Positions 7,040-21,645 of a stretch of DNA of 36,327 nucleotides are shown here, piece after piece. This DNA comes from Streptomyces lonarensis. GTDB taxonomy: Bacteria; Actinomycetota; Actinomycetes; Streptomycetales; Streptomycetaceae. The DNA is taken from assembly GCF_012033735.1 (NCBI RefSeq), contig NZ_JAAVJD010000031.1, positions 1-36,327 of the forward strand, given 5' to 3'. Both the position numbers and the translations under genes were made by a program. Each line of letters starts with the position of its first letter. Position 1 is the stretch's first letter. Below the pieces are notes generated by a model. The model searched no databases, had not been told where the DNA came from, and was given only the letters and a program-made list of their open reading frames with translations.

Positions 7040-7079
7040 GCCGCGCGGCCGCGCACGGGCAGCGGCCGGTGGGGCCGGT

Positions 7080-7712
7080 TCAGACGGTGCCGTACATCCG
7101 GTCCCCGGCGTCGCCGAGGCCCGGGACGATGAACCCCTGCTCGTTGAGTCGCTCGTCGACCGAGGCCGTCACCACGGTCACCGGCGCGCCGGCCAGCTCC
7201 CGCTCCATGACCTCCACGCCCTCCGGCGCCGCCAGCAGGCAGAGCGCCGTCACGTCGTCCGCGCCCCGCGCCACCAGCTCCCGGACGGCCGCGACCAGCG
7301 TGCCACCGGTCGCCAGCATCGGGTCCAGCACGTACACCTGACGGCCGGAGAGATCCTCCGGCATCCGGTTGGCGTAGGTGGACGCCTCCAGCGTCTCCTC
7401 GTCACGGATCATGCCGAGGAAGCCGACCTCTGCGGTCGGCAGCAGCCGGACCATGCCGTCCAGCATCCCCAGCCCCGCCCGGATGATCGGCACGACCAGC
7501 GGACGCGGGTGCGACAGCCGGACACCGGTGGTGCCGGTGACCGGCGTCCGGATGTCCACCTGCTCCGTCCGCACGTCCCGCGTCGCCTCGTAGGCGAGCA
7601 GGGTCACCAGCTCGTCGGCCAGGCGCCGGAAGGTCGGTGAATCGGTGCGCTCGTCGCGCAGCGTTGTGAGCTTGTGCGCCACCAGCGGGTGGTCGACGAC
7701 GTGAATCCGCAT
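7080..7712 (-). CDS. upp: Uracil phosphoribosyltransferase
   Basis: A 210-aa salvage enzyme forming UMP from uracil and PRPP. Start [16 protein letters not shown]. The PRPP-binding loop is [11 protein letters not shown] and the uracil-binding C-terminus reads Y-G-T at the end of G-D-R-M-Y-G-T-V. Length and motifs are full for the family. ATG 7712 is preceded by TAGGGT (7720-7725, minus strand) at 7 nt and no ribosome site, so it is probably leaderless. Confidence 0.97.
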
Positions 7713-10536: not shown

Positions 10537-11328
10537 GTGGCGACGACGCAGACCCGAGAATCGCGGGGCGCGGCCGCCAGGGCGCTCACCCACCAGCTGT
10601 TCGAGAAACTCGACCATCTGGAACCCGGCACCGCGGCACACGCCCGCGTCCGAGGCGAACTGATCGAGATCAACCTGCCGCTGGTGCGGTACGTGGCGAA
10701 CCGTTTCCGCAGCCGCAACGAGCCGATGGACGACGTCGTCCAGGTCGGCACCATCGGGCTCATCCACGCCATCGACCGCTTCGACACCTCGCGCGGCATC
10801 CAGTTCCCGACCTTCGCGATGCCCACCATCATCGGGGAGATCCGCCGCTACTTTCGGGACAACGTCCGCACCGTGCACGTACCGCGCCGCCTGCACGAAC
10901 TGTGGGTGCAGATCCACGGCACCACCGAGGAGCTGACGCTCAGCCTGGGGCGGAACCCCACACCCCGGGAGATCGCCGAGCGACTCGGCGTACCGGAGGA
11001 GGACGTGCTCGCCGGCACCGAGGCCGGCCGTGCCTACCGCGTCGCCTCTCTGGAGGCTTCCCAGGAGCGCGAGGACGGCAGCCCGGCGCTGGGCGAGCGG
11101 CTCGGGTACGACGACCCCGGCATGGACGGCGTCGAGCACCGCTCACTGGTCCGGCATCTGCTCGTCCAGCTGCCGGAGCGCGAGCAGCGCATCCTGTTGC
11201 TCCGTTACTACCGCAATCTGACGCAGTCACAGATCAGTACGGAACTCGGCCTCTCCCAGATGCACGTCTCGCGACTGCTCTCCCGGAGTTTCAGCAGACT
11301 GCGGGCCACAAACACGATCGACGCCTAA
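10537..11328 (+). CDS. sigF: RNA polymerase sigma factor, SigB/F/G group (SigF-like)
   Basis: A 263-aa alternative sigma factor. Region 2 is at about 45-110 ([28 protein letters not shown]), with region 3 in the middle. Region 4 helix-turn-helix is near the C-terminus ([20 protein letters not shown]). This group directs stress and sporulation genes in Streptomyces. The symbol is by synteny: it lies next to a second paralogue, as sigF and sigN do. GTG 10537 is favoured because AAGGGGTGG lies upstream and the conserved sequence begins there; ATG 10507 and TTG 10498 are open alternatives. Activity in this group is normally held by anti-sigma factors, none of which is adjacent. Confidence 0.88.
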
Positions 11329-13439: not shown

Positions 13440-14333
13440 GTGTCCACGAACAACTCCGCACCCCGCCGCGGACTGCGCCGCGCGGCCGTCGCCGGCACCG
13501 CTCTCGGCCTCGGCGCCGCCCTGCTGGCCGCCGGGACCGCCACCGGTTCACCCGCCTCGTCGGAGCCGGCCGCCGCCGACCCGCCCACCGCCACCGTCGT
13601 CTTCCACGACGACTTCGACGGCCCCGCGGGCGCCCCCGTCGACAGCTCCTCCTGGAACCTCGACCCGGGCGACAACATCAACAACGTCGAGCTGCAGTAC
13701 TACACCGACGGCACCGACAACGTGGCCCAGGACGGCAACGGCAACCTGGTGATCACTGCCGAGGAGGGCAACCCCGGCAACCACCAGTGCTACTACGGCC
13801 CCTGCGAGTACACCTCGGGCCGCATCAACACCGCCGGGAAGATCGAGGCCGAGTTCGGCCGCGTCGAGGCCCGCATCCAGCTCCCCGAGGGCCAGGGCAT
13901 CTGGCCCGCGTTCTGGATGCTCGGCGCCGACTTCGGCGACGTCGGCTGGCCGCAGAGCGGCGAGATCGACATCATGGAGCTGATCGGCCACGAGATGGAC
14001 ACCGTGCACGGCACCGTCCACGGCCCCGGGTACTCCGGTGGCGGCGGCATCGGCTCCCCCTACCAGCTGCCGGCGGGCGAGAGCTTCAGCGACGGCTTTC
14101 ACACCTTCGCCATCGACTGGTCGCCGGACTCCATCACCTGGTCCGTCGACGGCAACGAGTACCAGACGCTCACCCCGGCGGACGTCACCGGCGAATGGGT
14201 GTTCAACAAGCCCTTCTTCCTGATCCTGAACGTCGCCGTGGGCGGCGAGTGGCCCGGCTACCCCGACGGGTCCACGCAGTTCCCGCAGGAGATGGTCGTC
14301 GACCACGTGACCGTCACCGAGTTCACCCGCTGA
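13440..14333 (+). CDS. Secreted GH16 endo-beta-1,3-glucanase (laminarinase-like)
   Basis: A 297-aa secreted glycoside hydrolase. Signal peptide about 1-36 (R-R-G-L-R-R-A then A-G-T-A-L-G-L-G-A-A-L-L-A-A-G-T), with a twin-Arg-like n-region. The GH16 jelly-roll fills residues 50-297. The active site is G-E175-I-D177-I-M-E180 (nucleophile E175, acid/base E180), preceded by W-P-A-F-W-M-L-G. This architecture usually cleaves beta-1,3- or mixed-linkage glucans of fungal or algal walls. There is no binding module. GTG 13440 has a poor ribosome site; the signal peptide fixes the start region. It is a close paralogue of the gene at 16406. Confidence 0.93.
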   Translation: MSTNNSAPRRGLRRAAVAGTALGLGAALLAAGTATGSPASSEPAAADPPTATVVFHDDFDGPAGAPVDSSSWNLDPGDNINNVELQYYTDGTDNVAQDGNGNLVITAEEGNPGNHQCYYGPCEYTSGRINTAGKIEAEFGRVEARIQLPEGQGIWPAFWMLGADFGDVGWPQSGEIDIMELIGHEMDTVHGTVHGPGYSGGGGIGSPYQLPAGESFSDGFHTFAIDWSPDSITWSVDGNEYQTLTPADVTGEWVFNKPFFLILNVAVGGEWPGYPDGSTQFPQEMVVDHVTVTEFTR

Positions 14334-16112: not shown

Positions 16113-16405
16113 GCGCGTCCGCTCGGCGGCGCCCCGCCGTGTGCGGGTCTCGCCGGCATCGACACCGGCAGCGGCAGCGGCAGCCACGGTGGGCGGGCCG
16201 GCCCCGCCCGGCTGCGGCACCTGCGGGCCCCGACCCCGCGAGTTCCGGAACTCGGTTCTCTTGCAACCCAGTTGTGCAGGCGCTGCAATGGACCCGCACC
16301 AGGCTTCTTCACACCCCCCACAACCGCGCCCGCCACCGCGCCTTCGCGCGCCTACCGTCGGGCGCGGGTTCGACGGCGGCACCACCGCCAGAGAGGACGT
16401 GGCCC
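16113..16405. other. Upstream region of second GH16 gene
   Basis: No gene. It contains the CGAGTTCCGGAACTCG palindrome (16239-16254) and, 6 bp further on, a second inverted motif TTGCAAC-CCA-GTTGTGCA (16261-16278) with another TGCAA at 16284-16288. This is a dense operator-like region about 120-170 bp before the gene. Confidence 0.45.
16239..16254. promoter_or_regulatory. 16-bp palindrome CGAGTTCCGGAACTCG, putative operator of second GH16 gene
   Basis: A perfect palindrome sharing the GTTCCGGAAC core with the site at 13348-13361. It lies about 150 bp upstream of ATG 16406. Confidence 0.5.
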
Positions 16406-17770
16406 ATGACGGGTCCGTGGCCCACCCGTGCCTCCTCCCCCGACTCCCCGGCCCCCGCCCGGGTCCGCCGCCGCCCGGCGCTGCGCCGGCCACGACTCGT
16501 GGTCGCCGCGCTGGCGCTGAGCCTCGGGGCCTCCCTGCTGGCGTCCGGCGCGACCGCCACCGCGCTGCCCGACGCGGCCGCCCCCTCCGTCGCCGCCGCG
16601 GCGCCGGCCGCCGAGCCGCCCACCACGCAGAACGTCGTCTTCTTCGACGACTTCAACGGCCCCGCCGGCGCCGGCGTCGACGGCAGCAAGTGGACCCACG
16701 AGGTCGGCGACAACTGGGGCAACAACCGCGAGTCGCAGTACTACACGCCGGGCACCCGCAACGCCGCGCTCGACGGCAACGGCAACCTCGCCATCACCGC
16801 CCGCAAGGAGAACCCGAACAACTACCAGTGCTGGTACGGGCGGTGCGAGTACACCTCCGCGCGACTCAACACCGCCGGCAAGTTCAACGCCCAGTACGGC
16901 CGCGTCGAGGCGCGGATCAAGGTCCCCCACGGCCAGGGGGTGTGGCCGGCGTTCTGGATGCTCGGCGCCGACTACGCCAACGTCGGCTGGCCGCAGACCG
17001 GTGAGATCGACATCATGGAGAACGTCGGCTTCGAGCCCGGCAGAGTCCACGGGACGCTGCACGGCCCCGGCTACTCGGCGGGCGGCGGTATCGGCGCCTC
17101 CTACACCCTGCCCGGCGGGCAGCGCTTCGCCGACAACTTCCACGTCTTCGCGGTGGACTGGTCGCCCAACCGCATCTCGTGGTCGGTCAACGGCACCGTG
17201 TACCAGACCCGCACCCCCGCCGACCTCGGCGGACGCCAGTGGGTCTTCAACAAGCCGTTCTTCCTGATCCTCAACTTCGCCGTGGGCGGCGAGTGGCCCG
17301 GCTACCCCGACTCCTCCACGCAGTTCCCGCAGCAGATGCTCGTCGACTACGTGCGCGTCACCGAGGGGCAGAAGCCCCCGCCCACCGGCCGCACCGGCAC
17401 CATCACCGGGCTCGCCGGGAAGTGCGTGGACGTCGCCAACGCCAACAGCGCCAACGGCACCCCCATCCAGCTCCACGACTGCAACGGCAACGCCGCCCAG
17501 CAGTGGACCATCCCCGGCGACGGCACCATCCGGGCCTACGGCAAGTGCCTCGACGTGGACGGCCCCTCCACCGCCGACGGTGCCGCCGTCCACCTCTGGG
17601 ACTGCCACGGCGGCGCCAGCCAGCAGTGGGCGATCAGCGGGGCGCGCGACATCGTGAACATCCCGGCGAACAAGTGCCTCGACGTCCGCGAGCACAACAC
17701 CAACAACGGCACCCGGCTCCAGATCTGGACCTGCTCCGGCAACCCCAACCAGAAGTGGAACACCCCCTGA
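16406..17770 (+). CDS. Secreted GH16 endo-beta-1,3-glucanase with C-terminal ricin-type (CBM13) lectin domain
   Basis: A 454-aa secreted enzyme. Signal peptide about 1-52 (R-V-R-R-R-P-A-L-R-R-P-R-L then V-V-A-A-L-A-L-S-L-G-A-S-L-L-A). GH16 catalytic domain about 72-322, with E200-I-D202-I-M-E205. A short P-P-P-T linker leads to a beta-trefoil CBM13/ricin-B module (about 328-454). Its three repeats are visible by recurring G-K-C-x-D-V and Q-x-W (G-K-C-V-D-V, G-K-C-L-D-V, N-K-C-L-D-V; Q-Q-W, Q-Q-W, Q-K-W). The lectin presumably holds the enzyme on polysaccharide. ATG 16406 has GAGAGGA upstream. Paralogue of the GH16 gene at 13440. Confidence 0.94.
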   Translation: MTGPWPTRASSPDSPAPARVRRRPALRRPRLVVAALALSLGASLLASGATATALPDAAAPSVAAAAPAAEPPTTQNVVFFDDFNGPAGAGVDGSKWTHEVGDNWGNNRESQYYTPGTRNAALDGNGNLAITARKENPNNYQCWYGRCEYTSARLNTAGKFNAQYGRVEARIKVPHGQGVWPAFWMLGADYANVGWPQTGEIDIMENVGFEPGRVHGTLHGPGYSAGGGIGASYTLPGGQRFADNFHVFAVDWSPNRISWSVNGTVYQTRTPADLGGRQWVFNKPFFLILNFAVGGEWPGYPDSSTQFPQQMLVDYVRVTEGQKPPPTGRTGTITGLAGKCVDVANANSANGTPIQLHDCNGNAAQQWTIPGDGTIRAYGKCLDVDGPSTADGAAVHLWDCHGGASQQWAISGARDIVNIPANKCLDVREHNTNNGTRLQIWTCSGNPNQKWNTP

Positions 17771-17846: not shown

Positions 17847-17883
17847 CCTCGGCGGACGCCCGCAGCACGAGAGCACGACAAGA

Positions 17884-17911
17884 GCCCCTCCCGGGACTCC
17901 GGGGAGGGGAT
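17884..17911 (-). terminator. Original tRNA-Arg terminator, now beyond the distal att site
   Basis: CCCCTCCCGG pairs with CCGGGGAGGGG with one bulge. It occupies the same position relative to the tRNA 3' end as the hairpin at 21530-21566 next to the intact tRNA-Arg. I infer that this was the chromosomal terminator before the island inserted. Confidence 0.6.
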
Positions 17912-17915
17912 TCAC

Positions 17916-17957
17916 TGTGCGCTCGGCAGGATTCGAACCTGCAACCTTCTGATCCGT
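17916..17957 (-). repeat. Distal attachment site (tRNA-Arg 3' fragment, 42-bp direct repeat)
   Basis: This is identical over 42 bp to 21571-21612, which is the 3' half of the intact tRNA-Arg (T-arm, acceptor strand and part of the anticodon stem). Similarity ends abruptly on both sides. The tRNA 5' half is absent, so it is not a functional tRNA. This is the classical scar of integration into a tRNA 3' end. Confidence 0.9.
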
Positions 17958-17965
17958 GGACCATG

Positions 17966-17990
17966 ATCCCCAGGTCTCTGACCTGGGGAT
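17966..17990. repeat. Inverted repeat adjoining the distal att site
   Basis: ATCCCCAGGTC-TCT-GACCTGGGGAT forms an 11-bp perfect stem starting 9 bp inside the island. It could be a terminator or a recombination-protein binding site. Confidence 0.55.
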
Positions 17991-18033: not shown

Positions 18034-18100
18034 CTACGACGCACTACGACCAAAGTACTCCGCCCGCGCGTTCTCCCATTTTTCTCCCACCCATCTCCCG
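18034..18100. promoter_or_regulatory. Candidate integrase arm-type binding repeats
   Basis: CTACGAC occurs at 18034 and 18044 (10-bp spacing). TCTCCCA, TCTCCCA and TCTCCCG occur at 18072, 18083 and 18094 (exact 11-bp spacing, one helical turn). Short helically phased direct repeats beside an att core are typical of tyrosine-integrase arm sites and accessory sites. The assignment is inferred from position and phasing. Confidence 0.45.
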
Positions 18101-18145: not shown

Positions 18146-18514
18146 TCAGATACGGTTGAGGCCAGGCCACTGCGGGGGTTCGCTGGCCCCGCGGTGCAGG
18201 GCAGTGGTGGCTGTGGCCTCCATGGCTGCGTCCCCGGTGACGTACACGGCGGTGACGGTTCCGGCGCCTTCGGAGGATGCGGAGGAGTCGCCGTCCAGGT
18301 TGTGCATACACGAGTTCACCCGGGCTGCGAAGCGCTGTACGGCGCTGCCGACCGCGCCCGCGCTGCTGCTGCCGTACGTGAGGCCGCCACTGGATGTGGC
18401 CGCGGTACTCAGGTCACCGGCCAGGTCCGAGGTGGCGCTGGCGATTTCCGGCCGCTGGCCGTCAAACTGTCGGAGCACCGCCCGCACATGCGACGGAACA
18501 ATGTCCCAGTCCAC
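18146..18514 (-). CDS. DUF6507-like small helical protein (WXG100-like size)
   Basis: A 122-aa protein beginning V/M-D-W-D-I-V-P-S-H-V-R-A-V-L, the W-D-I start typical of DUF6507. It is followed by an Ala/Ser/Thr-rich helical body (S-S-A-G-A-V-G-S-A-V-Q-R-F) and a Gly/Ala segment. There is no signal peptide or membrane helix. In size and composition it resembles ESX/type VII-associated small helical proteins, so a role as chaperone or co-secreted partner is possible but unproven. GTG 18514 is chosen for the family start; TTG 18607 would extend it by 31 unconvincing residues. Divergent from the disrupted gene at 18670. Confidence 0.65.
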   Translation of the reverse strand: MDWDIVPSHVRAVLRQFDGQRPEIASATSDLAGDLSTAATSSGGLTYGSSSAGAVGSAVQRFAARVNSCMHNLDGDSSASSEGAGTVTAVYVTGDAAMEATATTALHRGASEPPQWPGLNRI

Positions 18515-18772
18515 CAGCCTGCCCCCGCTCAACGTAGTTGTTGGCCGACCGGGTTGATGGTACGGAACCGCCACTGCGGACACAACTGGTACCGTCCATA
18601 TACGCAAGGTGAGCTTGCATGGGGGCGAGCTGGACGCAGCACGCTACCGGCGAGGAGTTGGGGGAGCCAATGTCCATCGTCAGTCCGGCCGAGATCCCAT
18701 GGTTTGCTGGAAACCTCGCAGAGCTGGAGCGAACTGTCACCGCTCTCAGACGTGATGGCCGGACGATCTCCG

Positions 18773-18775: not shown

Positions 18776-19647
18776 GAGCTTCTTCGAGTTGGCCACTGAT
18801 CGGGTGATGGCCGTGAAGCGCAACGAGCGAGGCCCCCAGGCGGTTGATCGAGATGTCTGACGTCTCAACAACACTGCTCGGGGGCCTCGTTGGTCATCCA
18901 TCCTGCCGCACTCGACCTGCCGCACGCACTCATCGAGTGGGTCACCATGCTGATCGTCACCCGTGAGGGTGACCGCCGCTGCAAGCTCCGCCCGTCCCAG
19001 CGCGCGATGGTGGCACTGGTGTACCTGCGCGAGCACACCACTCTGGCGAAGATCGCCGCCGGTTTCGGGATCAGCGAGTCCACCGCCCACGCCTACACCA
19101 ACGCGATCGTCGACCTGCTCGCCGCACGTGCACCGGGCCTGCTGAAGACGCTGCGCGAGCATGATCCCGACTTCGTCCTCCTCGACGGGACCCTCGCCGA
19201 GTGCGACCGGGTCGGCGACGGCCGGGCCGACTACTCCCACAAACACCGGCGCCACGGCGTGAACGTGCAGGTCGTCACCGATCCCGACGGTCAGCTGCTG
19301 TGGCTCTCGCCCGCCCTGCCGGGCCGCACCCACGACCTGACCGCCGCCCGCACCCACCGGATCATCCGCATCTGCGAGCGCCAAGGCGTTCCCATCCTGG
19401 CCGACCTTGCCTACCAGGGCGCCGGCCCCTGGCTGACCACCGGCATCAAACGCAGACCCCTGCAGGAACTCACCCCCACCGAAAAGACCCGCAACCGTGC
19501 CCTGGCCGCCACACGGGCACCCGTCGAACGCGGCGTCGCAAGACTGAAGTCCTGGCGGATCTTCCGCAGGGCCCGATGCAGCCCCAACCGCATGACGTCA
19601 ATCGCCAAAGCCATCCTCACCCTGGAGCGGCAACGCTGAAGAAGCTC
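18776..19647. mobile_element. IS5-family-like insertion sequence (872 bp)
   Basis: It is bounded by imperfect terminal inverted repeats beginning GAGCTTCTTC (left end 18776-18794; right end 19629-19647 read on the minus strand), flanked by ACT duplications, and contains one full transposase gene. The intact repeats, duplication and gene suggest a fairly recent and possibly active insertion. Confidence 0.85.
18890..19639 (+). CDS. IS5-family-like transposase (HTH_Tnp_4 + DDE_Tnp_4)
   Basis: A 249-aa transposase. Its N-terminal helix-turn-helix (about 40-75: [18 protein letters not shown]) is followed by an RNase H-like DDE domain. The acidic residues are visible in V-L-L-D-G-T-L, D-L-A-Y-Q-G-A and V-E-R-G-V-A-R-L-K. 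Its length is normal for single-ORF members. The start appears to be TTG 18890 (CGGGGG upstream); an in-frame stop at 18845 prevents a longer form. The stop codon lies inside the right inverted repeat. Confidence 0.9.
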
Positions 19648-20029
19648 ACTGCGGAACGCGCCTCCACTCCACCTTCCAAGGCATCGCCCAGGGCTACACG
19701 CCGCGGAGTCCGAAGACCTGCTGGCAACGACCGTCCCGCTACAGCAGACCGGGGCCCGGGTCAAGGACGCTGTCACCCAGGTAGCAACAGTGCTGGACCG
19801 CTATGTTCTCGAAGCGCGCATCATCGGGGACCGCCTTGCTGACCTGCGCGAACGCGCCCGTCAGCTTTCGAGCGGCAGCTGGGAGGCCGACGACCCGAGA
19901 ACGATGGAGGAGAGCGAGCGCATCCGCGCGGAGGTCCGCGACGTCGTGACCGCCTTCGGGCGGCTCGAAGAGGAAACGGTACGGCAGATCGACGGCGTGC
20001 TGGACGAGGAGTGACCCAGGGTAGGAGTG

Positions 20030-20746
20030 ATGAGGGCCGGCTACGGCGACCACGGCTATGGCACTGGCGAGGACTCACCGCCGAACACCGAGGAGAACGC
20101 CGGCGACGGAGCGCAGTACGACTACATCCCCTGGCCCGAGGAAGGGGCTTTCCTGGCCCGGCACAAGAACACCATCGAACTCGCTGCGGCAGAATCCGGA
20201 ATCGACCCCGCCACCCTTGTCGCCCTTCTGATCAAGGAGGGAGGCGGCCGGGCCGAATTCACGGGACTGCCATTCCTGTCCGGAGCGCTCCGCTCCCTGG
20301 AGGGCTTGGGGACGATCTTCGGAAGAAACCAGACGGTGGGCATCGGGCAGATGCGCCCCGATGTAGCCCAGCGGCTCTTCCGGGACCACTACGGACACGA
20401 GATATCGACGTCCGACGCACGAAGGGTGCTGGCCTGGGACGACACGTGGGGAATCCGGCTGGCGGCGGCGGAACTCAGGTACATCAAGGAGGAGCTGGGA
20501 GTCACCGACCGAGAGGCGTACGTCATATACGCAGCTGGAGCTCAAACTGAGGCCACCCGCCTGTGGCTCAGTGGCGCACCAAGGGAACGGGCACCGCTGG
20601 TGTACGAGCGCGCGGACGGCTCCGAGAAGCACCACCAGTGGGCCGAGGAGTACTGGGAGAGAGCCGGCCAGGAGGACGGACGGGACCGGGAGCAGCGCAG
20701 GCGGCAGGAAGAACGAGAGCTTCACGAAGGCGACATGCAACGGTGA
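20030..20746 (+). CDS. Lytic transglycosylase/lysozyme-like protein without signal peptide (candidate secreted effector)
   Basis: A 238-aa protein. Residues 50-185 follow the SLT/lysozyme pattern: G-I-D-P-A-T-L-V-A-L-L-I-K-E70-G (catalytic Glu position), V-G-I-G-Q-M-R-P-D-V-A (counterpart of G-L-M-Q-x-x-P-x-T-A), W-G-I-R-L-A-A-A-E-L-R-Y-I, and I-Y-A-A-G (counterpart of the Y-N-A-G motif). The N-terminal 45 residues are polar and Gly/Asp-rich; no signal peptide or transmembrane helix is present, so export would need a leaderless route such as a type VII-like system. The C-terminus is a charged Glu/Arg helix. ATG 20030 (AGGG 8 nt upstream) was chosen; GTG 20027 is an alternative. It overlaps the next gene by 4 bp. 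Confidence 0.75.
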   Translation: MRAGYGDHGYGTGEDSPPNTEENAGDGAQYDYIPWPEEGAFLARHKNTIELAAAESGIDPATLVALLIKEGGGRAEFTGLPFLSGALRSLEGLGTIFGRNQTVGIGQMRPDVAQRLFRDHYGHEISTSDARRVLAWDDTWGIRLAAAELRYIKEELGVTDREAYVIYAAGAQTEATRLWLSGAPRERAPLVYERADGSEKHHQWAEEYWERAGQEDGRDREQRRRQEERELHEGDMQR

Positions 20747-21258
20747 CGAGAAGCAGCAGTACACATGACCTGCCTTCCGATCGGCCTCCTCGCCAGGCCC
20801 GGCGGCGGGTCCCCGGGCTACTTCTGGTCGTCGGCCTCGCCATACTGGCGGTCGCAGTCGTGGCAGTCACCTTGGCGGCCTCGGCGCTCAGCACGACCAA
20901 GAACGTCTCCAGCGCAGCCCGTGCCGAAGTGATCGGCGAGGCGCACCTCCTCGATGAGGTCGTTACCACCAGCCCTACCGGTGACAATCCATACGAGATC
21001 CGCTATCTGGTGCTGGATCTCTCCCCTTCCGAGCAACGTCGCCACCTCGAAGCCAAGGGCTGGGAGACGTTCGACATTCCCGACACCTCGACCGGATTCG
21101 GTGGCAGCACCGAGCGCCACAACGCCACCGCCTACGTCCAGCCCCTCCCCGACTTCCTCGACGCACACCGTGGCAGCCACACCGCCGAGCTGAACCGCTT
21201 CGATGACCTCCCCGCCCCTGACAACCTCATCGCCATCACCCTCCAGCCCTTGCGGTGA
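20743..21258 (+). CDS. Membrane-anchored extracytoplasmic protein (candidate immunity partner)
   Basis: GTG 20743 overlaps the upstream stop (GTGA), so the two products are coupled. The 171-aa protein has an Arg/Pro-rich cytoplasmic start, one transmembrane helix at about 26-48 (V-P-G-L-L-L-V-V-G-L-A-I-L-A-V-A-V-V-A-V) and about 120 residues outside the membrane with no family I recognise (L-V-L-D-L-S-P-S-E-Q-R-R-H-L-E-A-K-G-W-E-T-F-D). Its topology faces the compartment where the neighbouring hydrolase-like protein would act, which fits an immunity protein; that is inference from position and topology only. Confidence 0.7.
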   Translation: MTRSSSTHDLPSDRPPRQARRRVPGLLLVVGLAILAVAVVAVTLAASALSTTKNVSSAARAEVIGEAHLLDEVVTTSPTGDNPYEIRYLVLDLSPSEQRRHLEAKGWETFDIPDTSTGFGGSTERHNATAYVQPLPDFLDAHRGSHTAELNRFDDLPAPDNLIAITLQPLR

Positions 21259-21529
21259 CCATGCGGCTCCTGCACGCTCTACCTGAGTCAGCGAGGGCGC
21301 AGCCCTTGGGGCAGACAGCGGCGCGACGATCCTCGTGGCCTTGGACATGGACGACCTGTTCACCCTCCTGCTGGCATCCCACGCGTCACGTGATGTCGGT
21401 GTGAGCACTGCCGCGGTGCTGGCCGTCAGGGGACGACGACGGCCTGATGCCCTCGGAGTGGATGAGGATGAGGCGGGCCCGGACGGGACGGCACCCGCCT
21501 AGCCAGCACGTTGATGTCAGCTGGTGATG
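21259..21529. other. Right end of island, possible degraded ORF
   Basis: A 51-codon frame at 21347-21502 (M-D-D-L-F-T-L-L-L-A-S-H-A-S-R-D) lacks a ribosome site and resembles nothing I know. I see no integrase remnant. A TCACGTGA octamer at 21386-21393 is not a convincing parS. Confidence 0.4.
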
Positions 21530-21566
21530 TCAAAGGCCCCTCACGGAGTCCGTGAGGGGCCTTTGA
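21530..21566. terminator. Terminator of intact tRNA-Arg (island-borne)
   Basis: TCAAAGGCCCCTCACGGA is followed after one base by its exact 18-nt complement. It lies 6 bp beyond the tRNA 3' end on the minus strand, inside the island. Confidence 0.85.
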
Positions 21567-21570
21567 CCTG

Positions 21571-21612
21571 TGTGCGCTCGGCAGGATTCGAACCTGCAAC
21601 CTTCTGATCCGT
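21571..21612 (-). repeat. Proximal attachment site inside tRNA-Arg (42-bp direct repeat)
   Basis: Identical to 17916-17957. It makes up the 3' half of the functional tRNA, which the island restored on insertion. Confidence 0.9.
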
Positions 21613-21645
21613 AGTCAGATGCTCTATCCGTTAAGCTACGAGCGC
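21573..21645 (-). tRNA. tRNA-Arg(ACG)
   Basis: A 73-nt tRNA on the minus strand. Acceptor GCGCTCG/CGAGCGC, anticodon stem TCTGA/TCAGA with loop CTACGGA (anticodon ACG), T-arm with GGTTCGAATCC, discriminator A. It is the integration target of the island and the substrate of TadA, encoded at 8621. Confidence 0.97.

Follow-up and report, generated by a model that had tools for sequence, protein, structure and literature searches.

The window analyzed here is a stretch of 36,327 nucleotides of Streptomyces DNA, and the named relatives are likewise Streptomyces. Beside a tRNA-Arg(ACG) gene lies a 3.66-kb island flanked by two att cores, which we read, with a probability of roughly 0.64, as a composite relic of two integrative elements that has lost its integrase and that, with unlike arms at its two ends, would have been left stranded. 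The two ends are assigned to two different elements because the arm next to the tRNA carries repeats of one class (class A) and the distal arm carries a tandem array of TCTCCC units, which is most likely the relic of putative arm-type integrase sites. Relics of this sort are ordinary, though the present one has a detail that is informative.

The island and the repeats at its distal end

The distal att core, at 17916-17957, matches the 3' part of the tRNA-Arg(ACG) gene in 42 of 42 positions. An earlier, sequence-only reading of this DNA had placed three kinds of repeats within 145 bp of that core and had taken them together as the layout of arm-type integrase and accessory-factor sites, preserved although the integrase gene is gone. 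The repeats are indeed there: TCTCCCA starts at 18072 and 18083 and TCTCCCG at 18094, in exact steps of 11 and 11 bp, with the array ending 143 bp from the core; CTACGAC starts at 18034 and again 10 bp on, at 18044; and the inverted repeat (17966-17976 with 17980-17990) is paired in 11 of 11 positions. The features of the locus are collected in Table 1.

Table 1. Annotated features of the tRNA-Arg(ACG) island and its borders, in window coordinates
Feature	Position	Strand	Basis
Terminator-like hairpin of tRNA-Arg gene, chromosome side of distal att	17883..17915	-	sequence
Distal att, identical over 42 bp to the 3' part of tRNA-Arg (from anticodon to 3' end)	17916..17957	.	sequence match
Hairpin, 11-bp arms, terminator-like	17966..17990	.	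sequence; same stem beside tRNA-Gly elsewhere
CTACGAC, two copies, 10-bp step, function unsupported	18034..18050	+	sequence, shuffles, comparison of distal sites
TCTCCC(A/G), three copies, 11-bp steps: putative distal arm-type sites, class X	18072..18100	+	sequence, shuffles, genome and distal-site comparison
DUF6507 gene (cargo), 3' end facing the array	18146..18607	-	PF20117, E 1.7e-16
IS5-type insertion (transposase 18890-19639), not present here in the sister locus	18777..19647	+	profile match, sister alignment
Cargo ORF, no family match	20027..20746	+	ORF list, profile search
Cargo ORF overlapping 20027..20746 in another frame (start uncertain), no family above cut-off	20563..21258	+	
Putative proximal arm-type sites, class A, TTGATGTCA-N5-TGATGTCA	21511..21532	+	pattern from relatives
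Inverted repeat of 19 bp without mismatch: terminator-like hairpin of the tRNA, carried by the element	21529..21567	.	sequence
Proximal att core within the tRNA gene	21571..21612	.	sequence match
tRNA-Arg (ACG)	21572..21645	-	sequence

The three kinds of repeats are not equally informative. Among 20,000 dinucleotide shuffles of these 145 bp, a constant-step 6-mer triple (step 7-15 bp) appeared in 2 and a 7-mer present twice in 1,524, so that base composition hardly explains the TCTCCC triple, whereas the CTACGAC pair is at chance level. CTACGAC, which is also never paired at the 19 other distal tRNA-Arg sites that we compared, was accordingly dropped as a candidate arm site. The hairpin at 17966-17990 was likewise set aside as an integrase site, since a stem of the same CCCCAGGTC-N3-GACCTGGGG type adjoins tRNA-Gly genes in 10 of 25 scanned loci (L005, L007, L012, L013, L015, L017, L018, L024, L029 and L030); because of this company the hairpin looks like a terminator, and stems of its kind account for many of the short matches to the distal end in our search of 392 genomes. 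What survives of the proposed layout is thus the TCTCCC array, whose position and arrangement are as at other islands and which is linked to bacA elements, as described below.

The loss of the integrase gene was borne out by profile and tblastn searches of the att-flanked element. Pfam integrase, traB and rep families were missing from the ten ORFs that were profile-scanned, and tblastn of class A to D integrases against the island returned chance-level rows only, for which reason an integrase remnant inside the island was rejected. One row (21 residues at 21446-21499, E 0.21, to a class A integrase) could be a trace of the end of such a gene, which we do not claim. Because traB and rep were not among the ten ORFs, the island is an integrative-element remnant and not a defective actinomycete integrative and conjugative element (AICE) in the strict, traB-requiring sense given in PMC9513070.

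Over its whole length the distal end recurs in one other genome of the 392 Streptomyces genomes searched (the window's own included), at 93% identity in G134, and the remaining matches are pieces of about 20-40 bases; among 199 genomes from 55 genera, a set that overlaps the Streptomyces set and in which the best two or three candidates per genome were scored, only the window's own genome carries it whole. The 661-bp distal end gave no match in a phage collection and, in a plasmid collection, three records that matched in the core only. The sister genome has the same island at the same tRNA with the same arms, in blocks 94-98% alike and with other IS insertions, and its locus (L003/L099) keeps both the TCTCCC and the CTACGAC repeats, the third TCTCCC unit reading TCTCCCA there. 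Across the aligned distal arm, window and sister differ by eight substitutions and a 4-base gap, none of them in TCTCCC or CTACGAC letters.

Arm motifs at tRNA-Arg(ACG) islands

A search with the exact core yielded 66 stretches. Once the window and its sister were included, pattern reading gave 78 att sites, of which 57 were scored as intact tRNA and 21 as distal; the plasmid NZ_CP108973 is not among them. Short tandem motifs beside these cores fall into four classes, A (TGATGTCA), B (GCTGTAC), C (TGCCGTC) and D (GTGAGA), which are very probably arm-type integrase sites. At the 19 distal sites other than those of the window and its sister, class A was by our reading found five times, B five, C six and D once, and at two sites no array could be seen; L064 and L088, which are among the 19, end at a contig edge after 45 and 134 bases and look like one site. 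The sequence-only reading had looked to related elements for the window's repeats, and this expectation came out divided: none of the 19 sites (the two at contig edges counted) has a TCTCCC array, and no complete element that joins TCTCCC arms to a tRNA-Arg core was found among them, whereas such arrays are present at bacA elements.

Proximal arms consist of pairs of units 13 or 12 bp apart (10 in the single class D case) that start 48-78 bases before the core. Distal units of classes A to C start at +78 to +122 and the window's TCTCCC units at +113, +124 and +135, so that the window's array shows the general layout, short repeats that flank the core at a set distance. The window does not have the same motif on both arms, with TGATGTCA on the proximal side (at 21512 and 21525, a 13-bp step) and TCTCCC on the distal. 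The class A pattern, which was taken from relatives, had no match in 100 shuffles. This arm had been overlooked in the sequence-only reading, and since it is of a different motif class, the site is not one attP preserved whole. Helical phasing as such, by a 10.5-bp rule, was also given up, because the steps vary among the arm classes (13 bp in A and B, 12-13 proximally and 9 or 12 distally in C, 10-11 in D, and 11 in the TCTCCC array).

When neighboring sites on one contig were paired to give 17 att-bounded elements, with classes assigned after inspection, 14 had matched motifs at both ends and three, the window's among them, were mismatched. The second element of JOEL01000069 has a degenerate proximal motif and no visible distal array, and the second element of JOBF01000004 (L063/L039) has TGATGTC proximally and class B distally. 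Each of the three mismatched elements measures less than 5 kb, as do two of the matched ones, at 923 and 1,976 bp. The shorter of these, L034, is a tRNA-Arg element with matched class B arms that is too short for an integrase and may be a minimal passenger open to mobilization by a class B integrase. The JOBF01000004 island (about 205.1-209.6 kb of that contig, 4.6 kb) has no degenerate core between its ends.

In a count that is blind to the motif classes, the number of 6-mers shared within an element's own pair of ends, compared over stretches of 55 and 100 bases rather than entire ends, was attained in 2 of 20,000 permutations. The proximal arm of the window has 13 6-mers in common with one of the class A distal arms; with the distal arm of its own island it shares 2. 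The class B proximal arm of L062 has eight 6-mers in common with the distal end of the window's island and equally many with its own distal end, by virtue of GTACTCCGC and a GC-rich word. When distal arms of one class are aligned, the conserved positions cluster in two places, the bases nearest the core and the motif array.

The motif classes also track the integrases. In a tree of 15 integrase sequences (14 of 18 BLAST rows plus L098, several of them fragments; two from L051 and those of L075 and L081 were left out as fragments), classes A, B and C at tRNA-Arg(ACG) each form one clade, with support from 100/99 to 100/100, and class D is represented by one sequence. In the circular plasmid NZ_CP108973 a core that differs slightly from the window's is flanked on either side by class A arms, one distal unit having a mismatch, and a PF00589 integrase adjoins it. 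The integrases would bind these motifs; for the TCTCCC units, the connection to an integrase runs only through the bacA junction described in the next section.

The mismatch in the window might instead belong to one intact, asymmetric element, whose lost integrase bound the proximal TGATGTCA units, with the TCTCCC units bound either by an accessory factor or by the same integrase through a second surface. Perfect 42-bp cores at both ends, the conservation of both arms in the sister genome and the TGATGTC proximal and unlike distal arm of L063/L039 are consistent with such a design. It nevertheless appears unlikely to us, since four of the five other integrated elements with proximal TGATGTC have TGATGTC distally too, as does the circular plasmid, and the fifth, which is L063/L039 itself, has a distal arm of class B and not TCTCCC. 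Furthermore, no TGATGTC or its complement lies within 300 bp of the array in 12 bacA loci.

TCTCCC arrays at bacA and in phages

The exact TCTCCC triple is found in 38 of the 392 Streptomyces genomes, as compared to 19 for the reversed pattern (hand count). Sixteen of the 38 have it, as one family, in the 3' flank of bacA, and two are the window and its sister. This leaves 20, close to the 19 of the control, so that the window/sister locus and bacA together explain the excess over the reversed pattern. For the 16 bacA genomes the 3' flank was read in 12 loci, two more were examined separately and G283 and G289 were placed by array pattern, with the identity of BacA checked by Pfam for one of the genes. 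The island PAISt is reported to integrate at TTCATGAA, at the 3' end of bacA, by means of IntSt, a tyrosine recombinase that is not recognized by Pfam (PMC4057263), and integrase genes at bacA att sites appear also in PMC10711302. A PAISt-like integrase/att junction is present in at least 24 of the 392 genomes (two best candidates per genome scored), namely in at least 15 of the 16 genomes with a bacA array and at least 9 of the 376 others (Fisher p 4e-20, for genomes that are not independent). Nine of these at least 24 genomes lack the exact triple, and one of the nine, G090 (L238), encodes an intact IntSt-like protein.

The bacA arrays start 196-197 bases from the start of the palindromic TTCATGAA core. 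The spacers between the window's units match those of six distinct bacA arrays at a mean of 6.2 of 10 positions, versus 2.1 for 22 other arrays; each site, and each distinct bacA array, was represented once in this comparison. Among the 21 junctions aligned for the attR side, none is without a TCTCCC unit, but only four (L234, L238, L244 and L246) have two units 11 bp apart, which in L234 and L238 fall inside the integrase coding sequence. These last two loci encode intact 455-residue integrase-like proteins (L234 1614-2981, minus strand; L238 347-1714, plus strand) that end at the bacA att junctions and that, judging from their place and sequence tail, would be IntSt relatives; their Pfam integrase matches are all sub-threshold, and NCBIfam, tried for L234 alone, gave none. 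The IntSt-like tail had no match in plasmids.

In an initial set of six genomes, Pfam recognized no integrase or resolvase up to 15 kb from the bacA arrays, and a serine recombinase at bacA was rejected on this ground. The lack of PF00589 near these arrays fits with the reported invisibility of IntSt to Pfam (PMC4057263), as do the sub-threshold hits of the two 455-residue proteins. In 16 further genomes, one, G332, has among the matches listed a PF00589 integrase about 1.9 kb from its bacA TCTCCC array (G332:C12:186276-186770). In another bacA island, L228, the 3' end of bacA with a TCTCCC array (a triple, then a pair) is duplicated 3.9 kb apart, at 7072-7297 and 10946-11164; the copies enclose a DDE transposase as well as an ORF that matches AAA ATPases, and a decayed integrase tail adjoins the second copy.

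Among viral contigs of IMG/VR the triple occurs in 65 and the reversed pattern in 31. A PF00589 match lies within 1.5 kb in 11 of the 65 and none of the 31 (p 0.010, or 0.050 with two families collapsed), where three of the 11 matches are under the family cut-off and distances were worked by hand from locus offsets. The motif is tied to integrases in part, not always. The 54 contigs in which no PF00589 match lies so close would also suit a regulatory or structural element that came to stand near the att site by chance, for instance one placed downstream of the DUF6507 gene, whose stop codon is 46-74 bp from the window's array. We regard this explanation as quite unlikely: integration sites account for the Streptomyces excess over the reversed pattern, an array 3' of the DUF6507 gene is not a promoter operator for that gene, and no DUF6507 gene was found in the seven ORFs scanned of the one bacA island examined for it, L228.

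That the array is no more than a chance pattern in a pyrimidine-rich spacer seems very unlikely. Real DNA is richer in constant-step triples of any 6-mer than the shuffles are, with 55 of 1,248 overlapping tiles of the window and 397 of 17,436 tiles of the fetched loci containing one (2-4%), and about 20 of the 392 genomes have the TCTCCC pattern at background. Against this stand the rarity of such triples in composition-matched shuffles, the sparing of the TCTCCC letters among the few differences from the sister arm, and the resemblance of the window's spacers to those of bacA arrays.

Proposed composite origin and relation to known elements

Under the composite reading, the tRNA-proximal end would derive from a class A element of the AICE kind, and the distal end from a second, TCTCCC-armed element. 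Most likely the two inserted in tandem at a single tRNA, and a later deletion removed the middle together with the integrase. The cargo, that is the DUF6507 gene and its neighbors, would then have been stranded, because no single integrase could pair the unlike arms well, and would since have been inherited vertically. A deletion junction inside the island was not located. A scan for degenerate internal cores with up to 14 mismatches found nothing beyond the known cores in the window, the sister or the two other mismatched islands, and a hidden att core within the island was rejected on that basis; the scan is blind to a core that spans the L063/L039 border. Cis-mobilizable elements (CIMEs) are flanked by att sites, have no integrase and can be moved by the integrase of a relative. 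The island resembles them in its att flanks and missing integrase and differs in its mismatched arms, which argue against mobilization.

The arrangement of the window's arms has counterparts in AICEs. In the attP sites of pSAM2 and pACPL, integrase-bound arm repeats have been reported, in the form of a 21-nt repeat on each side of the tRNA identity segment (PMC3364876), which by our reading consists of two 9-mers about 12 bp apart and so resembles the layout in the window. The sequence and the tRNA are different, however, and in pSAM2 and pACPL the same repeat stands on both sides, whereas the window's sides are unlike. At Streptomyces tRNA-Arg genes, the accretion of several elements and a remnant without traB have been described (PMC9513070). 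The defective AICEs and remnants of that report share with the window a tRNA-Arg-type target, direct-repeat ends, tandem elements and the lack of transfer genes, and the state of the window fits a deletion within a tandem array of such elements; relative to the remnants described there, the hybrid ends are the new point.

PAISt-type islands share with the window a TCTCCC triple at 11-bp steps (in the bacA flank), a 3'-end target and, putatively on the window's side, a tyrosine recombinase, and they differ in the core, which is the TTCATGAA palindrome in bacA and tRNA-Arg in the window. We put forward tentatively, and with the odds against it, a wider proposal: that TCTCCCA arrays at 11-bp steps are the arm sites of the IntSt family, that a TCTCCC-armed tRNA-Arg element existed, that recognition of arm and of core has been exchanged among Streptomyces integrases in nature, and that unlike arms strand islands. 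For the PAISt integrase, the arrays would be candidates for its arm sites; PMC4057263 leaves open what att needs besides an 8-bp core. More generally, the arm motif at a single tRNA may tell which integrase family made each end, and with such a code composite or stranded islands could be recognized from their sequence. No report of an arm code or of TCTCCC arms was found in titles and the openings of abstracts, and such a report may already have been published.

The hairpin that adjoins the distal att from the chromosome side, assigned to the tRNA-Arg gene, has a similar counterpart in S. spiramenti (L083), where no island abuts the tRNA and the hairpin stands directly at the tRNA 3' end. Adjoining the island, the window encodes a GH16 glycosidase with a ricin-type lectin domain (16139-17770), parts of which are 80-89% alike to parts of 13679-14321. 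The same glycosidase gene is found in S. spiramenti (L083 1458-5177) about 3.7 kb from tRNA-Arg.
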